Part shown: positions 1,421-38,558 of the stretch, piece by piece | Layout: every line of letters begins with the position of its first letter | How positions within the stretch are numbered: the stretch's first letter is position 1 | Source: Tenacibaculum gallaicum | GTDB taxonomy: Bacteria > Bacteroidota > Bacteroidia > Flavobacteriales > Flavobacteriaceae | NCBI RefSeq assembly: GCF_003387615.1 | Contig: NZ_QUNS01000002.1 | Location: 463,698 to 527,697, forward strand | DNA length: 64,000 bases | Reading direction: 5' to 3' | The notes under the pieces: model-generated | Databases searched by the model: none | Told to the model about the DNA's origin: nothing | What the model saw: only the letters and a program-made list of their open reading frames with translations | Made by a program: the position numbers and the translations under genes

Positions 1421-4400
1421 ATGGAAAAACAGAGACAAATTAATAAAAAAGATATTGCTGTAATAGGTATTTCTTGCGAACTCCCACAGTCTAAGAATAC
1501 ATCGGAGTTTTGGAAAAACTTGATTGAAGGAAATGAGCTACTTCATTTCTATTCTAATAAAGAGTTAAAAGAATTTGGTATCTCAGACGCTACTATCAAA
1601 AATAAAGAGTTTGTAAAAGTAAAAGCTGAAATAGAAGAGTTGGGTGGTTTTGACTATGCTTTTTTTGGATACACAAAAGAAGAGGCAAGCTGTATGGACC
1701 CGCAAACGAGAATGCTACATCAATTAACATGGACGGCATTAGAAGATGCTGGATGTAATATTGATACTTATAAAGGTAAAATAGGAATGTATACATCAAT
1801 CTCTGATAATTTAAATTGGCAGGTATATTCTATGTTACATCCTAATTCTAAAGTAAATTCTTTTTACCAATCTCAACTATCAAATAAAAATTTTGCTCAT
1901 ACTTTAGTGTCTTATAATTTTGATTTTAAAGGACCGAGCTTACTGATTGATACGGCGTGTTCAAGTTCTTTAACTTCATTACATGTTGCCTGTAGAAGCC
2001 TGCTATTAAAAGAGTGTAATATAGCAATGGCAGCAGGTATTAGTCTAGATAGCACAAAAAATAAAGGTTACTTTTATCAAGAAGGAATGATTTCTTCAAA
2101 AGATGGACACTGTAGACCTTTTGATGAAAACTCTTCTGGAACTGTTGGAGGAAATGGAGGTGCAGTTGTAGTTTTAAAAAGATTAGAAGAAGCCATAAAC
2201 GATAGAGATAATATTTATGCTGTAATAAAATCTTCCGCTGTAAATAATGATGGTAGAGAGAAGATTGGTTATACGGCTCCAAGTGTAAAGGGGCAATCAG
2301 CATGTATAAAGTTAGCTCATCGAATAGCAAATGTACCTTTAGAATCAATTTCATATATAGAGACACACGGTACAGCAACAAAGCTAGGGGATCCAATAGA
2401 AGTAGAAGCTCTAAATAAAGCCTTTAATTACAATACAGAACATGAATGTGCTATAGGTTCAGTAAAGTCTAACATGGGGCATTTAGATGCTGCAGCAGGA
2501 ATAGCGGGTTTGTTAAAGACGACATTGGCTCTAAAAAATAAAAAAATTCCTAAATCTTTACATTTTAATACACCAAACCAAGAAATTAATTTTAATGATG
2601 GTCCATTTTATGTAAATAATAAATTGAAAAACTGGGAACCAAATGATAAGTATCCATTGAGAGCAGGGGTAAGCAGTTTTGGAATTGGAGGTACTAATGT
2701 ACATGTTGTTATGGAGGAACCTCCAGTTTTATCTAAAATAGATAAAGAAAGAGATTTTTATATAGTTCCGTTTTCAGCAAAGACAAAGAAATCTCTTTTA
2801 TTATATCAAAGAAAAATATTAGAGTTTTTAAAGGGAGGAAATAAAAGTTTAAATGATTTAGCTTATACCTTAAGTGTAGGAAGAAAACCTTTTACTTACA
2901 GAAATGCTCTAATAGCAAAGGATTCGGCATCTGCTATTAAAATGTTAGAGCAAACAGAATTTATTGAAAGAGCTATCACAAAAGCAAAGCAGAGACCAAT
3001 AATTTTTCTATTCTCAGGGCAAGGAAGTCAGTATTTCGGGATGGCAGAAAGGCTTTATAAAGAAAGTTCTTATTTCAAAAGCATAATTAATAGTGGGCTA
3101 AGTTATTTAAAAGACTTAACAGGAGAGAATTATAAAGAAATATTAGGGTATGAATCAAAAGAATCATTCAATGAAAATTTAATAAACGACACAAAATACA
3201 CGCAGCCGCTTTTGTTTTTGGTGGAGTATGCATTAGCTAAGCAAATGATATTGCTTGGAATTGAGCCAACAGCAATGATTGGACATAGCTTAGGAGAATA
3301 TGTTGCAGCTTGTATCAGTGAGGTTTTTACATTAGAAGATGCGTTAAGAATTATTGTAAAAAGAGCTGAGTTGATGAATGCATTGCCGAAAGGAGTAATG
3401 TTAGCTGTAGGAGAATCTTCAAATAAAATAGAAGAATCTTTACCAAAAGAATTGAGTATAGCAGCAAAAAATACGATAACCTCCTGTGTTGTTTCTGGAG
3501 AAAAAGAAACTATTGAAGATTATGTAAAACATTTAGAAAGTATAAACATTCCTTATAGAAGGTTAAAAACATCTCATGCTTTTCATTCAAAAATGATGAA
3601 CCCTATTTTAGATATTTTTGAAGAATTTTTAAAAGAGATAAAGTTTTCTAGTCCAAAATACAAAATTGTATCTAATTTAACAGGTAAAATGATCTCTTCA
3701 AATGAGATGATGTCACCTGAATATTGGAGCCGTCACTTGAGAGAAACTGTATGCTTTTATGATGGAGTTACAGCTATCTTAAATAATTATAAAGAATCAA
3801 TATTTATTGAATTGGGTCCAGGTAATACATTAGGAACATTTAGTAAGCAACATTCAAATTTTGACTTACGATCGGAATGTACAATATCAATGATTTCTCA
3901 TCCTAAAGAAATTGAAAGAGAAGTGAATTTATTTGAGTTTTCTATAGCAAAATTATGGGCTTTAGGATGCCCTGTTAGTTGGGATGAGTATTATAGAGGT
4001 GATAAAGGAAATAAAATTTCAGCACCTACATATTGTTTTGATAAAAAGAATTTTGAAAGTAGTGTAAACCCTTTAGAAGAAATAAAAGGTAAGGCAGAGT
4101 TGTTTCCAGGAATAAAAAGAAATGTATCTGAGTGGTTTTATGTTCCAAATTGGAAAAGAAGTACTTTTTTAAATTCAGATTTTCTCCAAGAAACCCCTAA
4201 AAAATATTTGATTTTCATAAATGAAGAACCATTAGTTGAAGACGTAGTTAAAACTTTAGAAAATGAAGGGAATCAAGTTGTCAAAGTCATAGAAGGGGAA
4301 GAGTTTTTAAAATATGATGACTATAATTATTGTATAGACTCTTTAAACAAGGAGCATTATTTAGCTCTTTATGAAGAGTTAAATAATAGGTTTAATAGAA

Positions 4401-5866
4401 TAGATCACGTTATTTATAGTTGGAAAACAAAAGAAGAAATAACCATAACGGATTATTTTCTTCACCTTATTGAAGTTGGTAAATTGACAATAAATTTAGC
4501 GGGAGAAACAGGCAATAAAGTTACTTTTTTATTAGAGTATGGTAATAATATTCATGGAGATGAAACATTAGATTCTAAAGCAACTATATCTAATAGTTTA
4601 TTGCAGGTGCTAGAGCAAGAAAATCCTAAAATTAAAGCTTCTAGTATAGACATTTTTAAGAACGAGTTTAATGTGAGTGCAGTTAGTATTATTAGAGAAA
4701 TAAAAAGTGATAGAAGTTCAATTAATATAGCATATAGAAAAGATCAAAGATGGGAATTGTTTTATGAAAATGTAAAGCTACCCAAGCACTCAAACAATCA
4801 AGGTTTAAAAAATAATGGACTTTTTATAATTACTGGTGGACTTGGAAAGCTAGGAGGAATATTAACAAGGTACTTATGTGAAAAATATAATGGAACAATT
4901 ATCTTGTTAGGTAGAACAAATATTTATGATAGTGAAGCAGGAAAAAATTCAAGGTTAGATAGTAAAATTAGCTTGTTAAAAAATTTACAGAAAGAATTCG
5001 AAAATATTCATTATTACCAAGTTGACGTATCAGATAACAATTCATTGCACAGGGTGTTTGAAAACATAACTCATAAGCATGGAGATATAACAGGTGTTAT
5101 TCATGCTGCAGGTATACTAGAGAATAATAGCTTTAAGACTTTTGAAAATGTTTCGCAAAGTGACGTTGAAGAGCAATTCACTCCAAAAGTTCTAGGAATA
5201 AATAACATATACTCATTAAGTAAACGACTTCCAATAGGTTTTGTTTGGATTGCATCTAGTTTATCTTCAATTTTAGGAGGGCTTACTTTTACATCTTATG
5301 CAAGTGCAAACAAATATTTAGACGCATTTATTCAACAAAGAAGAAATAAACTTACTAATTGGTTTTCTATTAATCTTGATGGTTTAATCGAGGAAAGGAT
5401 AAATGATGCTGAAATCATAGAGGTTTTTGAAAAATCTTTTATGATAGGGGAAGAACCTCAGTTAATTACATCTGTTAGAGAAATTAAAATAATAAATGAA
5501 AAGGAGAAGGAAGAAGAGTTTCATAATGAAAATTTAGAGGATGATTTTATTACTGAAAGACCAGATGTAAGTACAATATATCAAGAACCAGAAAATGAAA
5601 TTCAAAGAAAAATATGCTCAATTTGGGCAACTTTTTTCGGATATGAAAAAATAGGTGTTTTAGATGACTTTTTTGATTTAGGAGGAGACTCTTTAAAGGC
5701 AATGACTTTATTAAAAAAAATACAAAAAGCTTTTTTAGTTGAAATAAAATTACAGGAATTTTATACAAAATCAACTGTTAAAGATATTGCAGAACAAGTT
5801 GAAATTCTTAAAAAAGTTGAGTCAATGCAAAACCAAAGTAAGAAAAAAAATACAATAAAAATTTAG
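1421..5866 (+). CDS. Type I polyketide synthase module, KS-AT-KR-ACP
   Basis: This 1481-residue protein should extend the upstream aminoacyl thioester by one malonate and reduce the keto group. The ketosynthase (about 10-435) has Cys180 in DTACSSS, His316 in THGTA and His354 in NMGHLD. The acyltransferase (about 530-860) has Ser623 in GHSLGE and the HAFH motif at 719-722, typical of malonyl-CoA rather than methylmalonyl-CoA enzymes. A ketoreductase structural subdomain follows, then the catalytic ketoreductase with TGGLGKLGG at 1138-1146, Ser1280, Tyr1293 and Asn1297. It lacks the LDD motif of B-type ketoreductases (ILEN instead), so stereochemistry cannot be called. The ACP Ser is 1424 in LGGDS. 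No dehydratase or enoylreductase is visible. The upstream Phe/Tyr code predicts a statine-like 4-amino-3-hydroxy acid. It starts 8 bases after the previous stop. Confidence 0.96.
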   Translation: MEKQRQINKKDIAVIGISCELPQSKNTSEFWKNLIEGNELLHFYSNKELKEFGISDATIKNKEFVKVKAEIEELGGFDYAFFGYTKEEASCMDPQTRMLHQLTWTALEDAGCNIDTYKGKIGMYTSISDNLNWQVYSMLHPNSKVNSFYQSQLSNKNFAHTLVSYNFDFKGPSLLIDTACSSSLTSLHVACRSLLLKECNIAMAAGISLDSTKNKGYFYQEGMISSKDGHCRPFDENSSGTVGGNGGAVVVLKRLEEAINDRDNIYAVIKSSAVNNDGREKIGYTAPSVKGQSACIKLAHRIANVPLESISYIETHGTATKLGDPIEVEALNKAFNYNTEHECAIGSVKSNMGHLDAAAGIAGLLKTTLALKNKKIPKSLHFNTPNQEINFNDGPFYVNNKLKNWEPNDKYPLRAGVSSFGIGGTNVHVVMEEPPVLSKIDKERDFYIVPFSAKTKKSLLLYQRKILEFLKGGNKSLNDLAYTLSVGRKPFTYRNALIAKDSASAIKMLEQTEFIERAITKAKQRPIIFLFSGQGSQYFGMAERLYKESSYFKSIINSGLSYLKDLTGENYKEILGYESKESFNENLINDTKYTQPLLFLVEYALAKQMILLGIEPTAMIGHSLGEYVAACISEVFTLEDALRIIVKRAELMNALPKGVMLAVGESSNKIEESLPKELSIAAKNTITSCVVSGEKETIEDYVKHLESINIPYRRLKTSHAFHSKMMNPILDIFEEFLKEIKFSSPKYKIVSNLTGKMISSNEMMSPEYWSRHLRETVCFYDGVTAILNNYKESIFIELGPGNTLGTFSKQHSNFDLRSECTISMISHPKEIEREVNLFEFSIAKLWALGCPVSWDEYYRGDKGNKISAPTYCFDKKNFESSVNPLEEIKGKAELFPGIKRNVSEWFYVPNWKRSTFLNSDFLQETPKKYLIFINEEPLVEDVVKTLENEGNQVVKVIEGEEFLKYDDYNYCIDSLNKEHYLALYEELNNRFNRIDHVIYSWKTKEEITITDYFLHLIEVGKLTINLAGETGNKVTFLLEYGNNIHGDETLDSKATISNSLLQVLEQENPKIKASSIDIFKNEFNVSAVSIIREIKSDRSSINIAYRKDQRWELFYENVKLPKHSNNQGLKNNGLFIITGGLGKLGGILTRYLCEKYNGTIILLGRTNIYDSEAGKNSRLDSKISLLKNLQKEFENIHYYQVDVSDNNSLHRVFENITHKHGDITGVIHAAGILENNSFKTFENVSQSDVEEQFTPKVLGINNIYSLSKRLPIGFVWIASSLSSILGGLTFTSYASANKYLDAFIQQRRNKLTNWFSINLDGLIEERINDAEIIEVFEKSFMIGEEPQLITSVREIKIINEKEKEEEFHNENLEDDFITERPDVSTIYQEPENEIQRKICSIWATFFGYEKIGVLDDFFDLGGDSLKAMTLLKKIQKAFLVEIKLQEFYTKSTVKDIAEQVEILKKVESMQNQSKKKNTIKI

Positions 5867-5868
5867 TT

Positions 5869-8800
5869 ATGATTGATTTGATAAATGAGCTAGAAGAAAA
5901 TAAAATCCAGATATCTTTAGATGGAGAGGATTTAGAGCTAAGTTTTGATAGTCAATATGTTAGTTTGGATTTGGTCAAAAAGGTAAAGACAAATAAAAAA
6001 GAATTATTGTCTTTCCTTAGAAGAAAAAATAAAATTAAATCATATGATGATATTCCAATAATAGAGAGTAAAGAATATTATCCAATTTCTCATAACCAGA
6101 AAAGGATATGGGTTTTAAATCAGTTTGAGGGAGGTTCTATTGTTTGGAATATGCCCGTAACAATTGAGTTAAAAGGGGAGTATTCAGTAGATGTTTTTCA
6201 AAAGACACTGGAAAATATTATCGAGAGACATGAAACCCTTAGAACTGTATTTGTAAGAAAAGAAGACGGAGAGGTGTATCAAAAAGTTTTAACTTCTAAA
6301 GAATTTAACTTTCATCTAAACTATTTTGATTTTAAAGTGGAAGATAATGCGTCAATTAAAGCGGAGGAATACATAAATAAAGACTCCTCTTCGGTTTTCA
6401 ATTTAGAGAAGGATCCCTTGTTAAGATGTTCTTTATTAAGAGTTGATAATAATGAGTACTTATTTTACTTGAACATACACCATATAATTAGTGATGGTTG
6501 GTCATTAGAGATCTTACAGAGAGATATCATGGCTATGTATAAAGCAATTGAAAAAAAAGAAGCAGTCAATTTACCAAACTTACCTATTCAATATAAAGAT
6601 TTTGCTTCATGGCAATTAAATAATGTTGCATTAAGTAAAGATGCAGAGTATTGGAAAAATGAATTGATAACTCCATTACCAAACCTTAATTTACCTACTT
6701 TTAAAGAGCGTCCCCAAATACTAACTTATAATGGAGGGCATTACAGAACCTATCTTGGAAAAGAAACAACTAAAAAATTAAAACAGTTTTGTAAAGAAAA
6801 TGGAGGAAGTTTGTTTATGCTACTCTTGGCAAATTGGAATGTTTTATTTCATAGGTATTTAGGACAAAAAGATATTATAATAGGGACTTTAGTTGCAGGA
6901 AGAGTACACCCAAATTTGGAGGACCAGGTTGGGTATTATGTAAATACACTAGCGCTTAGAAATAAAATAGAACCAGAGAATAGTTTTTCTTCTTTTTATC
7001 AAAAAGTGAAAGATAAAACCTTAGAAGCATTTGAACATCAAATGTACCCTTTCGATAACTTGTTAGAAGAGTTAGATGTTGAAAGAGATGTAAGTAGAAC
7101 TCCTATTTTTGATATTCTTTTGGTATTACATAATATAAAAGAGAGAGAAAAAGAATATATCCATCTCAATAAAGAACAAATAGATAATATCAGTTATTTG
7201 GGAAAAACTTTTTCCAAATTTCCTCTAGAGATTGAATTTAAGGAGTTAGGAGATTATGTATCGTTTGATATTAAATTCAATACTGATATATATGAGGAGA
7301 GTTTTATTAAAGGCTGTATGAGACATTATAAAAAACTTATAAATGAACTTTTATTAGCACCTCAAAAAAAAATAAACAAGGTAGAGTTTTTAACAGAAGA
7401 AGAACACTATAAGTTATTACATGTCTTCAATAATAGCAAAGGAGACTACCCCAAAAATAAGAGAGTAATTGATTTTTTTAAAGAGCAGGTTTTTAAAACG
7501 CCAAATAAAGCTTCTGTAATTTATAAAAAGACAAAATTAACCTTTCAAGAATTAGATAAATTATCTGATGAATATGCTACTACTCTTTTAAGAGAGTATG
7601 GTTTAAAATCTGGACAAAATATAGTGGTAAGTTTACCTCATAGTTGTGATTTAATGGCAATATTATTAGCCGTCATGAAAATTGGGGCTATTTATATTCC
7701 TGTAGACCCTAAAACACCAAAAGAAAGAGTAGACCATATTTTTGATTTAAGCTCTAGTGTAAACATAATTGATAAGACTTTACTTAGTGATATTAAAAGA
7801 AAGCAAGCTGTTTTAGAGGAAGTGAAGACTAATTGGAATAATGATGTTGATAGTGAAATTGAGTTTATAATTTATACTTCGGGCTCAACTGGTATTCCTA
7901 AAGGGGTTTTAATAAAAACATCTAGTGTAAATAATAGATTGAATTGGATGTGGAAAAAATATCCTTTTGAGAAAGGTGAAGTTTGTTGTGCCAAAACATC
8001 AATAAGTTTTGTAGATCATATTTGGGAATTTTTTGGTCCGTTATTAAAAGGAATTCCTTTAGTATTTTATGCAAAGGAAGATATAATTGATATCCCAACA
8101 TTTATCAATAGTTTAGGAGAAGAAAAGATAACAAGAATAGTTTTAGTTCCTTCACTTTTAAGAGCAATATTGGAGTTTCCTGAATTATGTAGAGTTAAAT
8201 TAGAAAATTTAAGAGTCTGTATTAGTAGTGGAGAAGCTCTAAAAAAAAGAGACGTATCAAAGTTTTATAAAGTATTAAAGAGGAATAATGTTAGATTAAT
8301 AAATATTTATGGATCTACTGAGGTGACTGCTGACGCAACTTATTATGATACCTATAATGATTATTTTACAGAGTCTTCTTTTAAACTTTTTAATACTACG
8401 ATAAGAGATTCTGTTAATGGATTAATTGAACAACAGGATAATAGGTTGAAAATAGTATCGAGCTCGTTAAAAGAATTATTAGAGAATGATAATTTTCAGA
8501 AAGTTGATTTTAGTAAGGGGATAAACGAAGAAAAATATATTGAGTTCCTAAAAAAAGATATTTTACCTAATGTGGTAAATGTAGCTTCACCTAACTATAT
8601 AGGGCATATGACAGGACCTGTTCCTGAGTTTATTAGAGAAATTAACGCATTAATAGTTGCTCTAAATCAAAACCAGGTAAAAATAGAAACATCTTTAGTG
8701 GCTACGCTTATTGAAAATCAAGTAATAGGTACATTTCATAAGTTAGTTTTCGAAAAAGAACCTTCTTTTTATGAAGAATATGTTCAAAGTTCAGAAGAGG

Positions 8801-11800
8801 CTTTAGGAGTTATTACTAATGGCGGAACAATGTCCAATATAATGGCTATGAGCTATGCTCTAAATAATTCATTAAAACCTAAGGAAGGTTTTAGGGGAGT
8901 ATCAGAAGAAGGACTAATGGAAGCAATGAAAGCATATGAATATGAGAAAGTTGTAATAATTGGTTCTGAATGGTGTCATTATTCATTTGGTAAAGCGTTA
9001 AAAATATTAGGTTTAGGTAAAAACTCTTTTGCACCCATTAGTTTTGAAGATAAGGCTTATGAAGAACTTAAAGATGAACTTAGAAGCAAGATAGAGAGAT
9101 TACGTGAAGAGAAAACGTTAATATTAAGTATTATTGGAGTTGCTGGAACGACTGAGTCTGGAAATATAGATCCTTTAAAAATTTTAGGAGAAATAGCTGC
9201 CGAATTTAATATTCATTATCATGTTGATGCTGCATTTGGAGGAAGCTTTTTAATGGAAGACTCATTAAAATCAAAATTTAAAGGAATTCAAATGGCTGAT
9301 ACCGTTTCAATCTGCGCGCATAAACAACTTTACATTCCTATTGGGCTAAGTCTATGCTTGTTCAAAGATATTGATTTTATTTCATTCTCAGAAAATAACA
9401 CACATTACCAAGCAAGAAAAGGGAGTTATGATTTAGGAAAGTATACGGTTGAAGGGTCAAGAAATTTTATGAGTTTAACACTTCATGCAGTCTTCCATGT
9501 ATTAGGAAAAGAAGGTTTTTCTGAAGTAGTAAGACACAATTATAATACAGCTCAATACTTTGCTAAATTAGTCAAAAAAAGTGCTGATTTTGAATTAATA
9601 CTACAACCAGATTTAAATATTGTACTATATAGATATGTACCAGAAAGGTATAGAGGGAAATTAAAGTTTACAGAAAAAGAAATAGAAAAGTTAAATGAAT
9701 TAAATGAAAGAATTCAAATTAAACAGTTTGAAGAAGGAAATACTTTTGTTTCATATACTAAAATTAAGAATAAAGAAAATTTAAACAGACATCTTGTTTT
9801 CCGAACGGTGTTTATGAATCCGTTTACAAATGAAGTTAACCTAAAAGCAGTTCTAGAAGAACAAAGGCAAATAGCTTTTTCAATAGAAAATAAATCTGAG
9901 TTCGAAGAAATAAATGAAAGGGGAACAGTTCCAATTGGTATTCCCATAGAGAATGTAAAGGTATTTATATTAGATGAGTATTTAAATATACTACCTATTG
10001 GCGTAGTGGGAGAAATATGTATCAGTGGAGATTGTGTTTCAGAAGGGTATATTAATTTATCAAAAGAAGAATCATTTAGGTTTATAGATAGTCCTTTTGA
10101 AAAGGAAGAAAAATTATTTAAAACAGGTGATTTAGGGAGAATATTAGAAGATGGAAATATTGAGTTTATTTCTAGAAAGGATGATCAAGTAAAAATAAGA
10201 GGAAATAGAGTAGAATTAGGAGAGGTTGAGAATAACTTACAAAAATATAAAAAAGTAAAAAATGCTGTAGTGATTCCTAAAGAAACAGACAATGGAGAAT
10301 TGTTTTTAGTAGGTTACTTTGAATCGCTGGAAGAAATTTCATCGGTTGAATTAAGAAACTTTATGAAAGAATTTCTTCCAGACTATATGATACCACAGTA
10401 TTTCGTAAGGCTTGAAAAAATTCCTTTAACTACAAGCGGGAAGATAAATAAGCAAGAGTTACCAAATGTAGATTATAATACTTTTCAGGAGGTAAATAAT
10501 TATGTGGTACCAAGAAATGATATAGAGCTAAAATTGGTGGACGTATGGAAAAGAGTACTTAAGAAGGAAAAAGTTGGTATTTATGATGACTTTTTCGCTC
10601 TAGGCGGTCATAGTTTGAAAGCAACGAATTTAATAAATGAGTACCAGAAAATTTTTAATGTCAAATTAGGAATTAACGAGATATTCTTAAATACTACACT
10701 TTATTCTCATATAAGTTTATTAAATAAAGCGCCAAAGAGTAATTATTTAAAAATTGAAAAAGCAGCAGAAAAAGAAAGTTATGTATTATCTGGACCTCAA
10801 AAGAGGTTATGGATTGCAAGTCAGTTTTCAAATAGTTCGGCTTCTTATAACATGCCTTTTTCTATTGAACTAGATAAGGTTTCTAATATTGAAATATTTA
10901 AGAAAGCAATATTAGCCTTAGTGGAAAGGCATGAAATATTGAGAACGGTTTTTAAAGAGAATGAGCAAGGAGAATTGTCTCAATGGATTTTACCTAAAGA
11001 AACTTTATCGCTTGAAATCCCCTGTTTTGACTATTCTGATCAAGATTATGCAATTGATAAGGTGAAAGAATTTATAAAAGAAGATTCTTACCAAGATTTT
11101 GATTTAGAAAAAGGATCATTATTTAGAGTATTATTATTCAAAATAAATGAGAGTAAATACATTTTTTACTACAATATGCATCACATTATTGGTGACGGTG
11201 TTTCTTTAAGAATAATAAAGCGAGACACGCTGGCTTATTATAATGCTTTTATAAAGAATGAAGCTTCTCAGTTACCAGACTTGACTCTTCAATATAAGGA
11301 TTATGCTGAATGGCAAAACTCTAGATATGAAAGTGAAGAGTTTAAAGAATATAGTAATTTTTGGAAGCAAAAATTGAACGGTGAGCTTACAAGATTAAAG
11401 TTCTCTGGAGAAAAATCGAGACCTAAGGTAATAACACATGATGGTAGGAACATGTATTCATACATTGACTCAAAGCTCGTACTTGACTTGAAAAAGATGT
11501 GTAAACTAAATGAGGCTACTTTGTATGTAGGTGTTTTAACAGTATGGAAAATACTTTTCTCAAGATATACAAAGCAAACTGATATCATCGTAGGAACCCC
11601 AGTAGCAGGAAGATATCATGATGACTTGAAAGATCAGATAGGATGCTATATTAATACAGTTGTTTTAAGAGATAAGTTAAATTTAGAAGAAACATTTTTA
11701 GAAACTTTTGAGAAAATTAAGAACAATGTTTTTGAAAGTTTTGAAAATCAAGAATACCCATTTGAGAAGCTTGTTGAAGACTTAGAAATTAGTAGAAGTA

Positions 11801-12156
11801 CAGATAGAAATACAATTTTTGATGTGATGTTTTCATTTCATAACACAGAAGAAAATTTTAAAAGGGAAAAAAGTTACAATACAGAAGAGATTATAGATAG
11901 AGGAAATGTTAAGGTTAAGTTAGATCTTTTAATAAATTTTGCTGAAGAAGATAACTTTATCTATATGGATATAGATTATAATACCTCAATTTTTGAATCA
12001 TCCTTTGTAAGGAAAATGATAAGAGATTATAAGTACTTATTGAAAGAGTTAATAAACAAACCGAATAAAAAGTTGAGTGATATTGATTTTGAACAAGAAC
12101 AACGAAATCAATTGAAACAAAAGAGACAACAAAAATTGAAAAACTTGTTAAAATAA
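5869..12156 (+). CDS. NRPS with docking domain, C-A(interrupted by aspartate decarboxylase)-PCP-C
   Basis: This 2095-residue protein starts 2 bases after the PKS stop. Residues 1-55 resemble a TubC-type N-terminal docking domain. C1 (about 65-500) has HHIISDG with His204/His205/Asp209. The adenylation domain runs from about 520 to A5 (YGSTE at 814-818), is interrupted at about 829-1352 by a PLP-dependent decarboxylase (separate entry), and resumes with VPIGIPI at 1354, A6, A7 (KTGDLGR), A8 and A10 Lys1525. The specificity residues read V-D-W-V-I-S-I-A-D-K, nearly the beta-alanine code I recall from bleomycin synthetase (VDWVISLADK). The carrier Ser is 1582 in LGGHS. C2 (about 1645-2075) has HHIIGDG with His1771/His1772/Asp1776 and ends the protein with no adenylation domain, so it should act on the next protein's Asn carrier. 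The frame is unbroken and all post-insert adenylation motifs are kept. Confidence 0.95.
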   Translation: MIDLINELEENKIQISLDGEDLELSFDSQYVSLDLVKKVKTNKKELLSFLRRKNKIKSYDDIPIIESKEYYPISHNQKRIWVLNQFEGGSIVWNMPVTIELKGEYSVDVFQKTLENIIERHETLRTVFVRKEDGEVYQKVLTSKEFNFHLNYFDFKVEDNASIKAEEYINKDSSSVFNLEKDPLLRCSLLRVDNNEYLFYLNIHHIISDGWSLEILQRDIMAMYKAIEKKEAVNLPNLPIQYKDFASWQLNNVALSKDAEYWKNELITPLPNLNLPTFKERPQILTYNGGHYRTYLGKETTKKLKQFCKENGGSLFMLLLANWNVLFHRYLGQKDIIIGTLVAGRVHPNLEDQVGYYVNTLALRNKIEPENSFSSFYQKVKDKTLEAFEHQMYPFDNLLEELDVERDVSRTPIFDILLVLHNIKEREKEYIHLNKEQIDNISYLGKTFSKFPLEIEFKELGDYVSFDIKFNTDIYEESFIKGCMRHYKKLINELLLAPQKKINKVEFLTEEEHYKLLHVFNNSKGDYPKNKRVIDFFKEQVFKTPNKASVIYKKTKLTFQELDKLSDEYATTLLREYGLKSGQNIVVSLPHSCDLMAILLAVMKIGAIYIPVDPKTPKERVDHIFDLSSSVNIIDKTLLSDIKRKQAVLEEVKTNWNNDVDSEIEFIIYTSGSTGIPKGVLIKTSSVNNRLNWMWKKYPFEKGEVCCAKTSISFVDHIWEFFGPLLKGIPLVFYAKEDIIDIPTFINSLGEEKITRIVLVPSLLRAILEFPELCRVKLENLRVCISSGEALKKRDVSKFYKVLKRNNVRLINIYGSTEVTADATYYDTYNDYFTESSFKLFNTTIRDSVNGLIEQQDNRLKIVSSSLKELLENDNFQKVDFSKGINEEKYIEFLKKDILPNVVNVASPNYIGHMTGPVPEFIREINALIVALNQNQVKIETSLVATLIENQVIGTFHKLVFEKEPSFYEEYVQSSEEALGVITNGGTMSNIMAMSYALNNSLKPKEGFRGVSEEGLMEAMKAYEYEKVVIIGSEWCHYSFGKALKILGLGKNSFAPISFEDKAYEELKDELRSKIERLREEKTLILSIIGVAGTTESGNIDPLKILGEIAAEFNIHYHVDAAFGGSFLMEDSLKSKFKGIQMADTVSICAHKQLYIPIGLSLCLFKDIDFISFSENNTHYQARKGSYDLGKYTVEGSRNFMSLTLHAVFHVLGKEGFSEVVRHNYNTAQYFAKLVKKSADFELILQPDLNIVLYRYVPERYRGKLKFTEKEIEKLNELNERIQIKQFEEGNTFVSYTKIKNKENLNRHLVFRTVFMNPFTNEVNLKAVLEEQRQIAFSIENKSEFEEINERGTVPIGIPIENVKVFILDEYLNILPIGVVGEICISGDCVSEGYINLSKEESFRFIDSPFEKEEKLFKTGDLGRILEDGNIEFISRKDDQVKIRGNRVELGEVENNLQKYKKVKNAVVIPKETDNGELFLVGYFESLEEISSVELRNFMKEFLPDYMIPQYFVRLEKIPLTTSGKINKQELPNVDYNTFQEVNNYVVPRNDIELKLVDVWKRVLKKEKVGIYDDFFALGGHSLKATNLINEYQKIFNVKLGINEIFLNTTLYSHISLLNKAPKSNYLKIEKAAEKESYVLSGPQKRLWIASQFSNSSASYNMPFSIELDKVSNIEIFKKAILALVERHEILRTVFKENEQGELSQWILPKETLSLEIPCFDYSDQDYAIDKVKEFIKEDSYQDFDLEKGSLFRVLLFKINESKYIFYYNMHHIIGDGVSLRIIKRDTLAYYNAFIKNEASQLPDLTLQYKDYAEWQNSRYESEEFKEYSNFWKQKLNGELTRLKFSGEKSRPKVITHDGRNMYSYIDSKLVLDLKKMCKLNEATLYVGVLTVWKILFSRYTKQTDIIVGTPVAGRYHDDLKDQIGCYINTVVLRDKLNLEETFLETFEKIKNNVFESFENQEYPFEKLVEDLEISRSTDRNTIFDVMFSFHNTEENFKREKSYNTEEIIDRGNVKVKLDLLINFAEEDNFIYMDIDYNTSIFESSFVRKMIRDYKYLLKELINKPNKKLSDIDFEQEQRNQLKQKRQQKLKNLLK
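8353..9924 (+). other. Embedded PLP-dependent aspartate 1-decarboxylase-like domain inside the adenylation domain
   Basis: About 520 residues (829-1352 of the NRPS at 5869) lie between adenylation motifs A5 and A6. They form a complete group II PLP decarboxylase. ASPNYIGHM leads the N-terminal part, ALNQNQVKIETS follows, and TNGGTMSN is the phosphate-binding glycine-rich region. His1037 (WCHYS) should stack on PLP, Asp1120 in HVDAAFGG should pair with the pyridine nitrogen, and Lys1152 in CAHKQLY should form the Schiff base. EGSRNFMSL comes next. The order and wording match what I remember of the PanP / TIGR03799 family (putative pyridoxal-dependent aspartate 1-decarboxylase, about 540 residues). 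Decarboxylating L-aspartate at the alpha carboxylate yields beta-alanine, the substrate predicted from the surrounding pocket. Fold confidence is very high. Aspartate specificity is inferred from family resemblance and the pocket code. Glutamate or another amino acid is not excluded. Confidence 0.93.
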
Positions 12157-12159
12157 GCC

Positions 12160-13155
12160 ATGATAGATCGATTGAATAAGTTAAAGAATACTAATGTTAA
12201 AAGTATAAATGTTAACGAAGAAAATATTATAGAAAGTGTAAAAGATGCTACTCAAGGTTTTCCTTTGGTAATTGAAACACAAAGCACAAGCCTTAATTTG
12301 AAGTCTTGGATTAGTCATAACAAAGAAAAGTTTGAGCAAGATATGATAAATTATGGGGGAGTTTTGTTTAGAGGTTTTGAAATTAATTCGGTAAATAAGT
12401 TTCAAGACTTAATGAATATTTTTCCAAATGAATTACTAGAGTATAAGTTAAGATCATCTCCAAGACACTCTATATCTGGTAATGTATATGTATCTACTAC
12501 TTATCCTAATGATCAAATAATAAATATGCATTCAGAGAGTTCATATGCACCAGTTCATCCATCAAGAATAATTTTTTGTTGTGTAACTCCCGCGTTGAAA
12601 AAAGGAGAAACGCCTATCGCTGATACAAGGAAGGTATTAAAAAAAATATCTAGAGAGACAGTTGAGATGTTTAGAGAAAAAGGAATAAAGTATAGAAGAG
12701 TTCTTAATGGAATTCTTGGCTTGGCTTGGCAGGAAGTTTTTCAAACCGATGATAAAGAAATTGTGGAAAAAGAGTGTTTAAATAATGGAATGGAATTTTG
12801 TTGGAAAGGAGATAAAGAACTTGTAATAAGTTGGACAAAAAAAGCGATATGGGAACATCCTATTACAAATGAAGAGATATGGTTTAATCATGGTTTATTT
12901 TTTAATAAATACATGTTAAATAAAAGAGTATTGAGTTCGATTTCTGATGATGAAAAATTACCAAACAATACTTTCTTTGGAGATGGTACAGAAATATCTA
13001 AAGAAATTATAGAAGAAATCAACAATGCGTTTATAAAGTCAACTGTTTCTTTTCCATGGGAAAAGGGGGATGTACTTTTTTTAGATAATTTATTAATGGC
13101 GCATGGAAGAAACACTTACGAAGGAGAAAGGAAAGTTATAGTGTCAATGTATTAA
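12160..13155 (+). CDS. AsnO/SyrP-like Fe(II)/2-oxoglutarate-dependent amino acid beta-hydroxylase (TauD family)
   Basis: A 331-residue TauD/TfdA-fold oxygenase. The iron site is visible as His124-x-Glu126 (MHSES) and distal His315 (MAHGRNTY), with Arg324 placed to bind 2-oxoglutarate. HxE in place of HxD is the arrangement reported for AsnO, the free L-asparagine 3-hydroxylase of CDA biosynthesis. It starts 3 bases after the NRPS stop and precedes a module whose adenylation code reads Asn. Beta-hydroxylation of Asn, free or carrier-bound, is therefore the most economical role, though another residue of the assembly line cannot be excluded. Length is normal for the family (about 330). Confidence 0.87.
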   Translation: MIDRLNKLKNTNVKSINVNEENIIESVKDATQGFPLVIETQSTSLNLKSWISHNKEKFEQDMINYGGVLFRGFEINSVNKFQDLMNIFPNELLEYKLRSSPRHSISGNVYVSTTYPNDQIINMHSESSYAPVHPSRIIFCCVTPALKKGETPIADTRKVLKKISRETVEMFREKGIKYRRVLNGILGLAWQEVFQTDDKEIVEKECLNNGMEFCWKGDKELVISWTKKAIWEHPITNEEIWFNHGLFFNKYMLNKRVLSSISDDEKLPNNTFFGDGTEISKEIIEEINNAFIKSTVSFPWEKGDVLFLDNLLMAHGRNTYEGERKVIVSMY

Positions 13156-32422: not shown

Positions 32423-34360
32423 ATGAACTTACAAAGAACAATAATATTAGCAATAGTTTTTAATATTCTTTCATTTACAATAGTAAATGCTCAAAGCATA
32501 AGAAAAGAAGAAAGAGAATCACCTTTTCCAAATTCAAAATTTTTAGAAGGAGAAAATATCCAATGGGGAAACCTTATAGTACCAGAGAATTGGGAAAGTT
32601 TAAAAGGAGAAGTTAAAATAGCTTACGCTGTTTTAAATAATAAAAAAAGTAAGAATAATTCTGAAGCTGTTGTCTTTATTCAAGGAGGTCCAGGAGCGAG
32701 CGGAACAGAAACCATTTGGCAATGGGTAAACCATCCTATTAGAGAGTATAAAGATATCATACTTTTTGATATAAGAGGTACAGGACTATCTGAACCAAGA
32801 CTTTGTCCTGATTTAGGAAAGAAAATACTTGAGTTTTTGAGTAAAAATCAAAAAAAGGAAGAGGATGAGAAAGAAAAGATAAACGCAGTAATTTCTTGTA
32901 AAACAGACTTAATAAGTAAAGGAGTAGACATATCATCATACAATAGTCTGGCGATAGCAAAGGATATGAATGTACTTAAAGCATCTTTAGGGTATAAAAA
33001 ATGGTCTGTTTACGGGGTTTCTTATGGTACTCATGTAGCTCAGGTTTACGCTAGTAATTATCCAAATGATATTGAATCATTAATTCTAGACTCTCCAATT
33101 TCCAGCATAAGTAGTTATTATGAGAAAAATACTGATGGTTTTATGAGTGGCTTGTTAAAAGTATTCAAAAAATGTAAAGATGATCCAGCATGTAATTCTA
33201 GTTATAAAGATTTAGATACTATGTTTTTCGATGTAATAAAAGATTTAGAAATCAATCCAATTACTGTAAAAGTAGATGATAAGTTTTTAAAATCAGGAGA
33301 GTTTACATTTAATTCAGAAGATTTTAAAATTGTTATACAACAAGCTCTTTATCATAAACAAATGATTGAGGTTATACCATTACTGATTTCTCAGTTTAGA
33401 GTAAGAAATAAAAAAGCTTTAAGTAACCTAGTTCCTTCTTTTGCAAGTTTATTGAGTATGGATTACGGAGTGTATTATTGCTTTAGTTGTGAAGAGGTAT
33501 TACCATTAAATGATATTTCTAAATTTAATAAAGAATCACGTAAATATGAAGGATTAGATGGAGGAGTAGCATTCTATGAATCCGATTTTATGGTATGTGA
33601 AAAATGGGGAAAAACAGAAAGAGATAGTCTTTTCATGATGAATAATTCCACAAAAAATCTAAAAAGGAATATACCAACGGTCATAATATCTGGAGAGTAC
33701 GATCCAATAACTCCATCTAGTAATGGAAGCGAGTTAAGTGCAAAACTAACTGAATCAAAATTTTTAGAAATTCCTACTTATGGACATTCAGCAAGTTTCA
33801 CCCAAAAAGGAAGTAAACTAGTTAGTGATTTTTTATCGGATGTAGATATCAAGAGTGATACGAAACTTTTTTCTGATATTAAACCAGTTCATTTGGTGAA
33901 TGATGTAACTATTAATTCAGGAGTATTTAAAATGGGAAGTAGTTTTAACAATCTAGACCCGGTTTTTTTGTCACCTTTGATAATTGCGTTTGTACTAATG
34001 ACCTTTTTTATAATTAATTATACTATAAAAATCTTTAAAAAAGAGTATTCAAAAATAGCAGATAGTATCATTCGTTTAATGGGGATATTTACTTCTATAG
34101 TAGGAATACTATGCTTTGCTTTATTAGTAAGAGGAATAAGTGAAACCGCGGCAAATAATTATTTTATCTTAGCTTTTGGACTGCCAAGTAGCTTTGATTA
34201 TGTATTCATAGGGGTTGCTGTTTTTGCCTTTCTTTTGATTCTTTCTTTTGCATATTATTTTCTAAAACTAAAATCTATAAGAGATAGAAGCATTGTTTTT
34301 TCCCTGCTGTTTTCAAACCTTTTATGTATTGTTTATTTTATGTATTGGGGAATTATGTAG
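32423..34360 (+). CDS. Secreted alpha/beta hydrolase (S33 peptidase-like) with C-terminal membrane bundle
   Basis: A 645-residue protein. Residues 1-24 are a signal peptide (ending IVNAQ). The catalytic region resembles the tripeptidyl-aminopeptidase/prolyl-aminopeptidase S33 group: FIQGGPGASG oxyanion region, nucleophile elbow GVSYG (Ser200), Asp427 in EYDPITP and His455 in YGHSAS. After about residue 510 come four hydrophobic segments (LIIAFVLMTFFI, IVGILCFALLV, FIGVAVFAFLLIL, LLFSNLLCIVYFMY), so the hydrolase domain is probably held at the periplasmic face of the inner membrane. It sits 8 bases after the Gly NRPS. The layout recalls prodrug-cleaving peptidases such as ClbP (periplasmic peptidase plus C-terminal transmembrane helices) but on an unrelated fold. 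A role in maturing the exported product is inference. Confidence 0.85.
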   Translation: MNLQRTIILAIVFNILSFTIVNAQSIRKEERESPFPNSKFLEGENIQWGNLIVPENWESLKGEVKIAYAVLNNKKSKNNSEAVVFIQGGPGASGTETIWQWVNHPIREYKDIILFDIRGTGLSEPRLCPDLGKKILEFLSKNQKKEEDEKEKINAVISCKTDLISKGVDISSYNSLAIAKDMNVLKASLGYKKWSVYGVSYGTHVAQVYASNYPNDIESLILDSPISSISSYYEKNTDGFMSGLLKVFKKCKDDPACNSSYKDLDTMFFDVIKDLEINPITVKVDDKFLKSGEFTFNSEDFKIVIQQALYHKQMIEVIPLLISQFRVRNKKALSNLVPSFASLLSMDYGVYYCFSCEEVLPLNDISKFNKESRKYEGLDGGVAFYESDFMVCEKWGKTERDSLFMMNNSTKNLKRNIPTVIISGEYDPITPSSNGSELSAKLTESKFLEIPTYGHSASFTQKGSKLVSDFLSDVDIKSDTKLFSDIKPVHLVNDVTINSGVFKMGSSFNNLDPVFLSPLIIAFVLMTFFIINYTIKIFKKEYSKIADSIIRLMGIFTSIVGILCFALLVRGISETAANNYFILAFGLPSSFDYVFIGVAVFAFLLILSFAYYFLKLKSIRDRSIVFSLLFSNLLCIVYFMYWGIM

Positions 34361-34382
34361 TTTAATACTAAAAAGCACTACT

Positions 34383-35741
34383 ATGAATAATACAATTTTA
34401 AGAGAAAAATATAATTCTTTTATTAAAAGTGGAGTAAGAAAAGAAAACACAATAAAAGTAAACAACGATTTAGTCCCAGAAATTTTTCATAATTATGATG
34501 TACCTATTAGTTCTTGGCCAGTTCTCTTAGATAAAAACCAAATAGAAGGTTTAAATAAGCTTTGTAAAGAGTTGCCTAAGTTGTTACAAAAAATTCCTTA
34601 TTTGTATTTTAAAAGTGATACAAAAAAGATTAGTGAATTTTATTTTGAAGGGAACGAAATGTTAGCTCAATTTGCCTTAATGTCATTAGCTAAAGACATA
34701 GAAATAAGCTCACGTTTAGACATAATACAAACTCAAGAAGGATTCAAGGTATTAGAAATAAATATGGGGTCTTCAATAGGTGGAATGGAGTTCCAAAATT
34801 TTGATGAACTTATAAGGAGTTTACATCCGATAATGCAAAAGAAAAATAATGATAAAGATTTCGTTATAAAGAAAACCCAATCGATATATATAAATTTTAT
34901 TATTAAGCAAAGCTTAAAGTTTATTAATAGTAAAAATAGTGACATAAATATTTTCCTTGTAGGATATGGTAAAAGCACTGAAGAAGATAATGAAGTCCAA
35001 CAATACTTTCAAAGATTATTAAATGAGGAGCTTAAATATAGAGAATTAAAGGGGAAGGTTTTTATAGGTAAAATAGAAGAGCTTAATCTAGTAAAAAACA
35101 ACCTTTTTTATAAGGATAAACATATAGACTCAGTTTTGATATTAAATTATGCTTCCCTTGGGAATTCTCCTAATTTATTTAGAGCCTTTTTAACTAATCG
35201 GGTTTACTTTCCAGACCATTTAGGAACAACATTACTAGGAGATAAAAGAAACCTGAGTATTTTAAGAATTTTAGCTCAAAAAAAATCTTTTTCTGAAGAA
35301 ATTAATTTATTAATTCTAAAATGTATCCCGTGGACAGAATTGTTAAAGGATGAAAATGTAATGTATAATCAAAAAGAGGTTTCATTTATCAATTTATTAA
35401 AAGAAAATAAAAACCTTTTTGTAATTAAGGTGGCAAATGAACTACAAGGAAGTAATGTATTTGTAGGGAAGTTTATGGAACAAAACGACTGGAATAATAC
35501 AATATTAGAAGCCATTGAAAGTAAAAATTATTTAGTACAAGAGTTTTGTGATTCACGAACAGTTTTTGCTCCAAATGAAGATGATAAATGGGTGCCAAAT
35601 AGATTAATACTAGGCGCCTATGGGTTTGGAGATATCTATGGTGGGGTTTGTGCAAGATTATCACAAATTAATAAAAAAGAAACAGGAGTGGTAAACGTTG
35701 CTTCAGGGGCTATAGGTGGTTTAGTATATGAGTATAATTAG
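34383..35741 (+). CDS. ATP-grasp-like protein, paralogue 1 of 3
   Basis: A 452-residue protein. The start chosen is the ATG at 34383 (MNNTILREK), 22 bases after the previous stop and aligned with its two paralogues; a longer frame from 34293 overlaps the hydrolase gene and adds unrelated hydrophobic sequence. The middle has SSRLD and VLEINMGSSIGG, like the pre-ATP-grasp substrate face of glutathionylspermidine-synthase-type ligases. The C-terminal part has FVIKVANELQGSNVFVGK, a likely nucleotide-binding lysine-glycine strand, YLVQEFCDS and GAYGFGDIYGG. Here the usual KDA is KVA and the final NSAKGA is NVASGA, so this copy is the most diverged. Reaction unknown: ATP-dependent amide or peptide ligation to the cluster product is the family-based guess. 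Confidence 0.75.
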   Translation: MNNTILREKYNSFIKSGVRKENTIKVNNDLVPEIFHNYDVPISSWPVLLDKNQIEGLNKLCKELPKLLQKIPYLYFKSDTKKISEFYFEGNEMLAQFALMSLAKDIEISSRLDIIQTQEGFKVLEINMGSSIGGMEFQNFDELIRSLHPIMQKKNNDKDFVIKKTQSIYINFIIKQSLKFINSKNSDINIFLVGYGKSTEEDNEVQQYFQRLLNEELKYRELKGKVFIGKIEELNLVKNNLFYKDKHIDSVLILNYASLGNSPNLFRAFLTNRVYFPDHLGTTLLGDKRNLSILRILAQKKSFSEEINLLILKCIPWTELLKDENVMYNQKEVSFINLLKENKNLFVIKVANELQGSNVFVGKFMEQNDWNNTILEAIESKNYLVQEFCDSRTVFAPNEDDKWVPNRLILGAYGFGDIYGGVCARLSQINKKETGVVNVASGAIGGLVYEYN

Positions 35742-35771
35742 AAAGTTAAAACAAGCTTAAAAAAATAGTAA

Positions 35772-37151
35772 ATGAAAGAAGTATATAATAAATCGAGCTA
35801 TAAAAACTCTATTCTAGGAGAGTTTCATGAAGAGTTTATAGAAAACAAAAAAGTGTCTTCTTCAAGACTTAACATAAATAAGATAAATAAAGAAGAAATT
35901 CCAGATTTGTTTAAAAATTATGATTATGAGGTGTGTTCATGGCCAATTATAATAGATAGTTGTAAATCAAATCAATTAGAGGAATTAACTTTTAAAATTC
36001 CAAAATTAATATCTAGAATTCCTGAATTATATTTTAAAAACGATATTAAAAGTATAGCAGATTATTATTACGAAGGAAACCAAATTATGACCCAATTAGG
36101 GTTAATTTCTCTTCAAATGAATCAAAACTCAAGTATAAGGCTTGATTTGAGTTTACCTGAAACTGATTTTAAAGTGTTAGAAGTAAATGCAGGCTCTTTA
36201 TTGGGAGGTTTTGAATTGAGTAGTTTTGAGGATACATTAAGAAATTTACATCCTTCATTTTTAAAGTTTTCAAGAGAAAAATTTAAGTCTTATAATGTGC
36301 AGCAAAAATATTTTCAGTTCTTAATTAATGAAGTCCTTAATTATACTGGTGAAAAGAATGAAGTAAATATTTTTATAGGGCTAACAGATAAAGAAGAATC
36401 GGTAAGACAAAATGCAATGAAATTTATTAATGGTTTGGTGAAAAAAGAGTTTACTAAACTTAAAATAAATGGAAAAACATATACAGGAGATATTTCAGAA
36501 TTAAAAAATGAAAATGGAGTTGTAACTTATAGAGGAATTACAATTCACGGAATAACATTATTAGGAAAGAATATTCCATTAGATAAAACCATATATAGAA
36601 GTTTTATACAAAAAAAAGTGTACCTAACAACACATTTTGGATATGCTATTTTAGGAGATAAAAGAAGTTTAGTATTACTTAGGAAACTAGCGTTACAAAA
36701 TAAATTTAGTAAAGAAGAAAACGAATTAATTTTAAGAAGTATTCCATTTACTGAGAATTTAGGTGAAAAAAGAACTGTTTTTAAAAATGATGAGTACAAC
36801 ATATTAGAGTTGGTTAAAAAATACAAAAACAGTTTTGTAATAAAAGACGCTGTTGGCGCTCAGGGTGATAATGTTTTCATTGGTAAGTTTGAGACAGATA
36901 AAAGTTGGAATGAGATAATTAATCTAGGACTCAAGAAAAATTATATTATTCAAGAGTATTGTGCTTCAAAAAATTATTTAGCTCCAAATAAAAATAACTT
37001 ATGGGTAGATCATAAATTAATTTGGGGGGCGTTTGGTTTTGGTGAAGAATATGGTGGTGTTTGGGGGAGACTTTCTGAAACAATAAATGATGTTGGTGTA
37101 ATTAATTCTGCTAAAGGAGCAGTAGAGGCGATTATTTTTGAATATAACTAG
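35772..37151 (+). CDS. ATP-grasp-like protein, paralogue 2 of 3
   Basis: A 459-residue paralogue of its neighbours, 30 bases after the first. Shared landmarks are CSWPIIID, ELYFKNDIKSIADYYYEGN, IRLDLS, VLEVNAGSLLGGFE, LGDKR, FVIKDAVGAQGDNVFIGK, YIIQEYCAS, GAFGFGEEYGGVWGR and the C-terminal NSAKGAVEAI. The Lys/Gly-rich strand followed by a QE(Y/F)C strand and terminal R...N residues fit an ATP-grasp nucleotide site, probably of the glutathionylspermidine-synthase/circularly permuted group. I do not recognise a specific characterised enzyme. Tandem retention of three divergent copies suggests three related ligation or modification steps rather than redundancy. Confidence 0.75.
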   Translation: MKEVYNKSSYKNSILGEFHEEFIENKKVSSSRLNINKINKEEIPDLFKNYDYEVCSWPIIIDSCKSNQLEELTFKIPKLISRIPELYFKNDIKSIADYYYEGNQIMTQLGLISLQMNQNSSIRLDLSLPETDFKVLEVNAGSLLGGFELSSFEDTLRNLHPSFLKFSREKFKSYNVQQKYFQFLINEVLNYTGEKNEVNIFIGLTDKEESVRQNAMKFINGLVKKEFTKLKINGKTYTGDISELKNENGVVTYRGITIHGITLLGKNIPLDKTIYRSFIQKKVYLTTHFGYAILGDKRSLVLLRKLALQNKFSKEENELILRSIPFTENLGEKRTVFKNDEYNILELVKKYKNSFVIKDAVGAQGDNVFIGKFETDKSWNEIINLGLKKNYIIQEYCASKNYLAPNKNNLWVDHKLIWGAFGFGEEYGGVWGRLSETINDVGVINSAKGAVEAIIFEYN

Positions 37152-37184
37152 AGGTAAAATTTCTAAAAAATAAACGAAATAGAA

Positions 37185-38558
37185 ATGACTATAAATAAAT
37201 CAATCTCAATCTTATCAAATAAACACAAATCTTTTATAGAAAGCAAAAGAAAGCTAACTGCTTCTAGGATAAATACAGACTTAAAAGAAATAGATCCTGT
37301 TTTTCGAGAATATGAATATCCTGTTTGTTCTTGGCCTGTTTTAATAGAGCTAGATGTCGTTCAGAGTTTAGAAGAAATGTGTTTAAAAATACCTAGACTG
37401 TTATCACAAGTACCTGAATTATATTTTAAAAATGATATATCAAAAATAGCACAGTTTTATTATGATGATAATTATATGCTGGCTGAATTTGGTATGATGT
37501 GTTATCAAAAAAAGCTTGCAACAAGCTCAAGACTTGATTTGACGAGAACAAGTGAGGGGTTTAAGATATTAGAAGTAAACATGGGACCTTCATTAGGGGG
37601 GTTTCAAGTTCAGAGTTTTGAGAAAGTGATAAGAAGTCTTCATAATAATTTACTTCAAGATAGTTCTAATAAATATAATTGTAGAAATATTCAAACATCT
37701 TATTTTAAGTTTTTAGTAGGAGAAATAATAAAGCAAGTATCTGGAATTGATAAAAGGAAAGAGGTGAATATTTTCGTAGGAATGGATTCGGTAGGTGAAG
37801 GTTTGATTATTGATACAATGAATTTTTTTAATAATTTATGGGAAGGTGAACTAAACTCTATTGGTTTAAAAGGTAAAGCAATAACAGGAGATTTAACTGA
37901 TCTTGAGTATATAAAAGGAAATATTTTTTATGAAAATAATAGAATTCATGCTATAACTTTATTAAACAGTGATTTACACTTAAAACCAGAAGTGTTTAGA
38001 GCTTATGTTCTAAATAACCTATACATAACTTCTCCAATTGATATTCAAATGATAGAAGATAAAAGAAACTTAGCTATTTTAAGAAACTTGGCAGAAGAAG
38101 AAAAGTTTACAGATGATGAAAATAAACTTATTTTAGATTCAATACCTTATACGGAAATAGTAGAAGATAAAAATGTTTTTTATAAAGGTAAAGAGGAAAA
38201 TCTTCTCCAGTTATTAAAGAACAAAAAAAATAATTTTGTAGTAAAAGATGCTACGGGTTCACAAGGAAAAAATGTTTTTGTAGGAAAGTTTATGACAGTA
38301 AAAAAATGGGATGAAGCCATAAATTATGCAGTTAAAAATACTAAGTATATTGTTCAAGAGTTTTGTGATTCAATGGATTTTCTAGCTCCAAACTTCCAGA
38401 ATGAATGGAGTAGACATAAGCTTATTTGGGGAGCTTTCGGTTTTGGAGATATTTATGGAGGAGTGTGGGTTAGAATGTCTGAAGTAAAAACTGATGTAGG
38501 GGTAATTAATTCAGCTAAAGGAGCTGTTGAAGCTATAGTTTTAGAAACAAGTTCTTAA
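37185..38558 (+). CDS. ATP-grasp-like protein, paralogue 3 of 3, last gene of the cluster
   Basis: A 457-residue paralogue, 33 bases after the second. It has CSWPVLIE, PELYFKNDISKIAQFYYDDN, SSRLDLTRT, ILEVNMGPSLGGFQ, EDKRNLAILRNLAEEEKF, FVVKDATGSQGKNVFVGK, YIVQEFCDS, GAFGFGDIYGGVWVR and NSAKGAVEAIV. It seems closest to paralogue 2 at the C-terminus. The shared pattern points to an ATP-dependent ligase fold, substrate unknown. A hairpin about 115 bases downstream (38674-38701) probably ends the long + strand transcript. Confidence 0.75.
   Translation: MTINKSISILSNKHKSFIESKRKLTASRINTDLKEIDPVFREYEYPVCSWPVLIELDVVQSLEEMCLKIPRLLSQVPELYFKNDISKIAQFYYDDNYMLAEFGMMCYQKKLATSSRLDLTRTSEGFKILEVNMGPSLGGFQVQSFEKVIRSLHNNLLQDSSNKYNCRNIQTSYFKFLVGEIIKQVSGIDKRKEVNIFVGMDSVGEGLIIDTMNFFNNLWEGELNSIGLKGKAITGDLTDLEYIKGNIFYENNRIHAITLLNSDLHLKPEVFRAYVLNNLYITSPIDIQMIEDKRNLAILRNLAEEEKFTDDENKLILDSIPYTEIVEDKNVFYKGKEENLLQLLKNKKNNFVVKDATGSQGKNVFVGKFMTVKKWDEAINYAVKNTKYIVQEFCDSMDFLAPNFQNEWSRHKLIWGAFGFGDIYGGVWVRMSEVKTDVGVINSAKGAVEAIVLETSS

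Follow-up and report, generated by a model that had tools for sequence, protein, structure and literature searches.

A beta-alanine-type adenylation domain interrupted by a PanP-like decarboxylase in a peptide synthetase of Tenacibaculum gallaicum

The window analyzed here, a stretch of 64,000 nucleotides from Tenacibaculum gallaicum (assembly GCF_003387615.1, contig NZ_QUNS01000002.1, positions 463,698 to 527,697), encodes a nonribosomal peptide synthetase (NRPS) in which a pyridoxal phosphate (PLP)-dependent decarboxylase resembling PanP is built into an adenylation (A) domain. The split A domain probably makes its own substrate, the insert producing beta-alanine from L-aspartate, and the beta-alanine would then be activated and loaded. 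The architecture itself is real and not a chance event, since 53 of 54 homologues share the arrangement, and the pairing of decarboxylase and pocket type is conserved both in cis (53/53) and in trans (9/14). A self-made substrate had been proposed in the initial annotation of this DNA, and, judged from sequence, that mechanism appears likely.

Pfam domains on the NRPS are Condensation, AMP-binding (residues 537-827), Pyridoxal_deC (895-1256), AMP-binding_C (1452-1525) and PP-binding (1555-1611). Core motifs a3 to a5 of the A domain precede the insert and a6 to a10 follow it, with a5 (NIYGSTE) at 812-818 and a6 (GEICISG) at 1381-1387, so that the insertion is between a5 and a6. This is the organization of an interrupted A domain, with core motifs on either side of a second catalytic domain and a single A fold in the model, which matches TioS A4 (5wmm). 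Both condensation domains of the NRPS have their HHxxxDG motif, and the carrier its GGHS. The initial annotation had placed a decarboxylase within the A domain, and about 514 intact residues are indeed found between a5 and a6; its limits (8353..9924) are right for the location of the insert and not for the exact ends, which are several residues wide on each side. The limits used here (residues 832-1345, 8362-9903) are taken from homologue alignments. Structure prediction, as monomer models, gives a complete decarboxylase fold in the insert (model A2 used 27 of the 54 homologues, and A3 used 23 of 120 listed proteins).

The insert belongs to the group II decarboxylases by its Pyridoxal_deC score (PF00282, 141.3 bits vs a gathering cut-off of 27). 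When excised, it matches the PanP model TIGR03799 over almost its full length (467.4 bits, model 47-522 of 522, protein residues 864-1335), and the next best NCBIfam match reaches only 121 bits; for the PanP of Vibrio (P0068; proteins are given P numbers and loci L numbers) the TIGR03799 score is 975 bits. Identity to stand-alone relatives is 37-45% for 22 of the 23 aligned and 54% for P0055. In the alignment of the window protein with 53 homologues, whose inserts are down to 33% identical to that of the window, His1037, Asp1120, His1151, Lys1152 and Tyr1180 are invariant in all 54 rows, and the catalytic His, Asp, Lys and loop Tyr of group II enzymes are thus present throughout. His1037, Asp1120 and Lys1152 had been named in the initial annotation and are at those positions in the translation; His1037 is, from family knowledge, presumably the residue that stacks on the cofactor. 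Tyr1180 aligns with a tyrosine of the Streptococcus thermophilus enzyme that is counted as Tyr333 (assuming a three-residue tag), a position altered in entries 4rj0 and 4riz. In group II decarboxylases a tyrosine protonates the quinonoid (PMC3870968). Tyr1180 would be its counterpart, and its conservation argues against an oxidative or degenerate enzyme.

The pocket of the A domain reads VDWVISIAD plus Lys1525 (mapped to GrsA positions by hand), which reproduces the VDWVISIADK of the initial annotation. We take this type of code to specify beta-alanine, the reference code being VDWVISLADK-like. All 53 interrupted A domains have a.D...S.AD pocket and the late lysine (xDxxxSxADK). Other A domains of the 54 proteins, found by BLAST and used as a control, show the pocket type in 0 of 17 cases, and in the gene cluster of the window it occurs in one of 12 A domains, the interrupted one (the code at -546 is partly read). 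Interrupted cyanobacterial loci (L035, L038 and L067) have the same insertion site, and their pocket, VDAVFSLAD, is of the same type.

When a database was searched for the insert, with proteins of NRPS length allowed and the 7985 candidates that share most words scored, at least 54 proteins were found. The two A-domain halves directly flank the insert in 53 of these 54 relatives, the exception being P0054. Among the matches listed, the closest named protein is from Tenacibaculum singaporense (P0002, 94% over the insert), and the organisms named belong, among others, to Tenacibaculum, Flavobacterium, Dokdonia, Kordia, Aquimarina, Chryseobacterium, Pedobacter, Chitinophaga, Agarilytica and Candidatus Electrothrix. 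When named genomes were scanned, the best 80 of 554 loci comprised 72 stand-alone and 8 interrupted forms, the latter in a Saprospiraceae metagenome-assembled genome (MAG), Kordia periserrulae, Chitinophaga (two), Acaryochloris, Richelia and Parabeggiatoa MAGs, and Hyella patelloides. Such relatives are rare: at E <= 1e-60 there are matches in 2 of 397 genomes from the family of the window and in 1 of 395 from its phylum, the window genome being part of both counts. Across 294 genomes of the group around L032, the only match at E <= 1e-70 is in the genome of L032 itself, and in 59 related genomes the matches outside the window are no more than 24-37% identical (best E 1.5e-37) and were not used.

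Cyanobacteria provide the pairing in trans. Strong relatives occur in 14 of 386 sampled genomes, at 15 places: a single interrupted one (Hyella) and 14 with a stand-alone frame, 537-569 amino acids long. In nine of the 14 stand-alone cases (L136-L138, L142-L145, L148, L149) the decarboxylase match starts 1.2-1.4 kb past the point where the N-terminal part of an A domain without interruption ends, the remainder of the same module being all that lies in between, and the pocket of this A domain is VDWV(I/V)SLAD in all nine. Similarly, the stand-alone copy of Chitinophaga sp. YR573 (L032) lies one open reading frame (ORF) past an NRPS whose uninterrupted A domain reads VDWVTSIAD, and in Burkholderia sp. 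SRS-46 (L077) a VDWVTSLAD domain is about 6 kb further on from the stand-alone decarboxylase. One further protein, P0055 (601 amino acids), combines a decarboxylase with an N-terminus resembling TubC_N (21.9 bits, below the cut-off of 26) and has no A domain; from its sequence it looks like a released insert able to dock to an NRPS.

Two trees, both made by a quick method, bear on the history of the fusion. That of the insert has 77 rows (52 interrupted and 25 stand-alone; 7 of 84 rows were removed as near-copies, and P0054, P0056, P0183, P0221 and L028-L030 were not entered) and requires at least 5 changes of state. That of the A domain has 138 rows and requires at least 15, starred branches forcing 6 of them; it was made after dropping P0001, P0003, P0006, P0019, P0020, P0042, P0044 and P0053, rows no longer than 230 residues, as many as 11 rows of odd or outgroup type, and L137 (a near-copy of L136). 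In this second tree P0207, a Puia protein with a VDWVISIAD pocket, no insert and a 13-residue spacer, nests within an interrupted clade. The changes of state and the placement of P0207 indicate that the insert has been repeatedly gained or lost while the pocket type persisted. Five uninterrupted A domains of beta-alanine type (P0185, P0207, P0223, P0236 and P0241) have 13-30 extra residues between a5 and a6, possibly the scars of a lost insert.

Under the favored mechanism, the embedded PanP-like decarboxylase would convert free L-aspartate to beta-alanine, and the surrounding A domain would activate this product and load it on the adjacent carrier domain, while the insert, whose fold requires a dimer, would bring two NRPS chains together. 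Such an enzyme would most probably serve as a private, co-regulated source of beta-alanine, independent of the coenzyme A pathway. We infer the activity, the aspartate substrate, the beta-alanine pocket, decarboxylation ahead of adenylation and dimerization through the insert. A bolder version is tentative, and we hold it to be possible rather than probable: one two-step machine, dimerized via the insert, would turn pool aspartate into beta-alanine beside the pocket and hand it on before it escapes, giving a new role to A-domain inserts, at a5-a6, that was fused and unfused several times.

Decarboxylation before adenylation is favored from sequence on two grounds. A basic residue (K, R or H), which could hold the alpha-carboxylate of aspartate, occurs at the nine pocket positions in 0 of 54 rows, and P0183 and P0221 each have two A domains of beta-alanine type with a single insert, placed after the N-terminal part of the second, an arrangement that is easier with free beta-alanine; the one decarboxylase seems to serve both modules. 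The reverse order, in which L-aspartate is activated through its beta-carboxyl by the A domain and loses its alpha-carboxyl to the insert only once carrier-bound, as in AfcQ/AfcP and as proposed for BolO/BolN, is unlikely. It has parallels in AfcP, which works on aspartate loaded on a carrier (PMC12186527), in the bolagladin bolN mutant, which is not restored by feeding beta-alanine (PMC7756342), and in the methyltransferase inserts of other A domains, which act after carrier linkage (PMC11355689). However, VinN, and by conservation BolO, is proposed to hold the alpha-carboxylate via Ser299 and Arg331 (PMC7756342), and the basic pocket residue of this type is lacking in all rows here, VinN being compared by description and not by alignment; the two pockets per insert of P0183 and P0221 also speak against loading first. 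A different substrate, with the insert decarboxylating 3-methyl- or 3-hydroxy-aspartate and the A domain taking 3-aminoisobutyrate or isoserine, is rather improbable. A TauD-family gene directly follows the NRPS (12160-13155), and a TauD domain is fused to the end of P0183, but the best family match is to an aspartate enzyme, PanP, and there are further candidate targets for the TauD and CmlA enzymes within the cluster, for example the DLTKIGEVG domain at 14611. Finally, the insert would be an inactive or structural remnant only with a very small probability: many close A domains share the pocket type without it, and the changes of state in the A-domain tree point to frequent gain or loss, but its H, D, K and Y are invariant down to 33% identity, and the full fold is predicted.

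Several observations weigh against the favored mechanism of substrate supply by the insert. Its TIGR03799 score is below the curated cut-off (467.4 vs 606.1 bits), and it is accordingly rejected as a member of PanP, with the likeness kept. The resemblance to PanP/TIGR03799 seen in the initial annotation thus stands as to nearest family and near full-length match and not as to the family cut-off, and in the profile search of PLP decarboxylase families that it had suggested, the insert scores above the PF00282 cut-off, and TIGR03799 comes out best, below its own. The code strings were not found in a full-text literature search. Among further close A-domain relatives (90 new ones from the best 120 of 2047 listed, with the pocket counted by hand), 76 of 90 have the pocket type and 89 of 90 have no insert at that domain. 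In P0054 the decarboxylase is ahead of, and not inside, an A domain coded DMLQISCIF. Five of the 14 cyanobacterial stand-alone copies have no such pocket nearby (L139, L140, L141, L146, L147), two of these (L140, L141) coming right after an A domain with a different code, and the nine others include close kin (L136/L137; L142/L145), so that there are fewer than nine independent cases. Just 4 of the 72 stand-alone loci are near any scoring A domain (L032, L077, L084 and L095); the code is a different one at L084 and was not read at L095. The product may also be shared in P0183 and P0221, judging by their domain order, which would not fit a strict hand-over to the surrounding pocket. A panD gene occurs in the host, as well as in 5 of the 6 genomes searched that have an interrupted A domain (6 of 8 searched genomes overall, two of the eight carrying stand-alone copies). 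Together, the presence of panD and the many uninterrupted A domains of this pocket type mean that beta-alanine as such does not depend on the insert, which would be a dedicated supply and not the sole source.

Jamaicamide, from the cyanobacterium Lyngbya majuscula, contains a beta-alanine unit. Its synthase JamL (Q6E7J8) has, like the NRPS of the window, a Pyridoxal_deC domain embedded in an A domain, and was listed by Milano et al. in 2013 as KS-AT-ADH-KR-CP-C-HxxPF-A-PLP4-A-CP, the function of the PLP domain being "not clarified" in that survey (PMC3870968). The initial annotation knew of no characterized case; as a claim of no precedent this is too strong, since JamL is listed as A-PLP-A, with no role assigned. 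The order C-A-Pyridoxal_deC-A-CP is found in both, but JamL is a mixed polyketide synthase (PKS)/NRPS of a cyanobacterium, and it is compared by published domain order only, not by site or pocket. No locus identifiable as JamL is present in the best 80 of 554 loci or the 386-genome cyanobacterial sample. Besides JamL, a literature search of partial coverage returned no decarboxylase-interrupted A domain, an earlier statement being possible, and none appears in the available excerpts of PMC12751119, PMC10127204, PMC11253843, PMC11755721, PMC12305651 and PMC4519256.

The interrupted A domains of TioS, TioN, KtzH and PchE likewise hold a second catalytic domain in one A domain that keeps its fold. 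Reviewed inserts are methyltransferases, oxidases, monooxygenases and reductases that modify the residue, mostly at a8-a9 and sometimes at a2-a3 (PMC11355689, PMC8949500), and that of PchE is an epimerase; the insert of the window, unlike these, would make the substrate, and its a5-a6 site is not one of the typical, non-defining sites of the reviews. PanP is by far the best family of the insert (467 bits), which differs in being part of an NRPS, in scoring below 606 and in not being a pantothenate gene here. Nearest among characterized pathway enzymes found are AfcQ/AfcP and CrpG. The cryptophycin enzyme CrpG is also a pathway decarboxylase that provides a beta-amino acid unit from an aspartate, but it is a separate, PanD-like protein of pyruvoyl type acting on 3-methylaspartate (PMC7459860). 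AfcQ/AfcP and BolO/BolN share with the insert the PLP-dependent conversion of aspartate to beta-alanine during peptide assembly, but they are separate proteins that act, or are proposed to act, on carrier-bound aspartate (PMC12186527, PMC7756342). The proposed substrate-making role would be new for A-domain inserts; a PLP-interrupted A domain was known from JamL.

What was in 2013 an unexplained oddity of JamL becomes a defined family with a sharp prediction, in which decarboxylase and pocket type travel together in Bacteroidota, Cyanobacteriota and Pseudomonadota. If the prediction is true, inserts in A domains can provide a substrate and not just modify a residue, and this insert would be a marker for beta-alanine in predicted peptides. 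The a5-a6 loop would then be able to accommodate a complete enzyme from a family whose members are normally dimers, which would be useful in assembly-line engineering.

Table 1. Coordinates of the interrupted NRPS, its domains and predicted catalytic residues, and the adjoining genes (positions in the window).
Feature	Position	Strand	Evidence
NRPS, TubC_N-like / C / A (interrupted) / PCP / C, 2095 amino acids	5869..12156	+	ORF, Pfam/NCBIfam, motifs
TubC_N-like docking domain, residues 3-51	5875..6021	+	23.9 bits, slightly below Pfam cut-off of 26
Condensation domain 1, HHIISDG at 204-210	6073..7419	+	Pfam, motif
A domain, N-terminal part, residues 537-831; motifs a3-a5, 9 of 10 pocket positions (VDWVISIAD)	7477..8361	+	
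Inserted PLP decarboxylase, residues 832-1345; PanP-like, group II fold predicted	8362..9903	+	
His1037, presumed cofactor-stacking position (family knowledge)	8977..8979	+	H in 54/54 rows
Asp1120	9226..9228	+	D in 54/54 rows
Lys1152, predicted Schiff-base lysine	9322..9324	+	K in 54/54 rows
Tyr1180, predicted group II proton donor, in a poorly modelled loop	9406..9408	+	Y in 54/54 rows
A domain, C-terminal part, residues 1346-1533; motifs a6-a10, Lys1525	9904..10467	+	
Peptidyl carrier domain, GGHS serine present	10531..10701	+	Pfam, motif
Condensation domain 2, HHIIGDG at 1771-1777; limits approximate (set by hand)	10786..12108	+	
PKS module KS-AT-KR-ACP upstream of NRPS	1421..5866	+	
TauD-family dioxygenase directly after NRPS	12160..13155	+	

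The NRPS is part of a large NRPS-PKS cluster with 12 A domains, which covers positions 1-34360 of the window and about 29 kb upstream of it (L108, L109). It also encodes a phosphopantetheinyl transferase, hydroxylases of TauD and CmlA type, a TonB-type receptor, a thioesterase and an ABC transporter. At its end (34293-38558) are three ORFs of 457-482 amino acids with no Pfam match. P0054, the relative with a differently placed decarboxylase, carries further on a methyltransferase and an S15 peptidase-like part. Between the upstream NRPS genes of the cluster there is a 438-amino-acid ORF (L108:1042-2358) with a weak match to radical SAM proteins (21.8 bits, below the Pfam cut-off).

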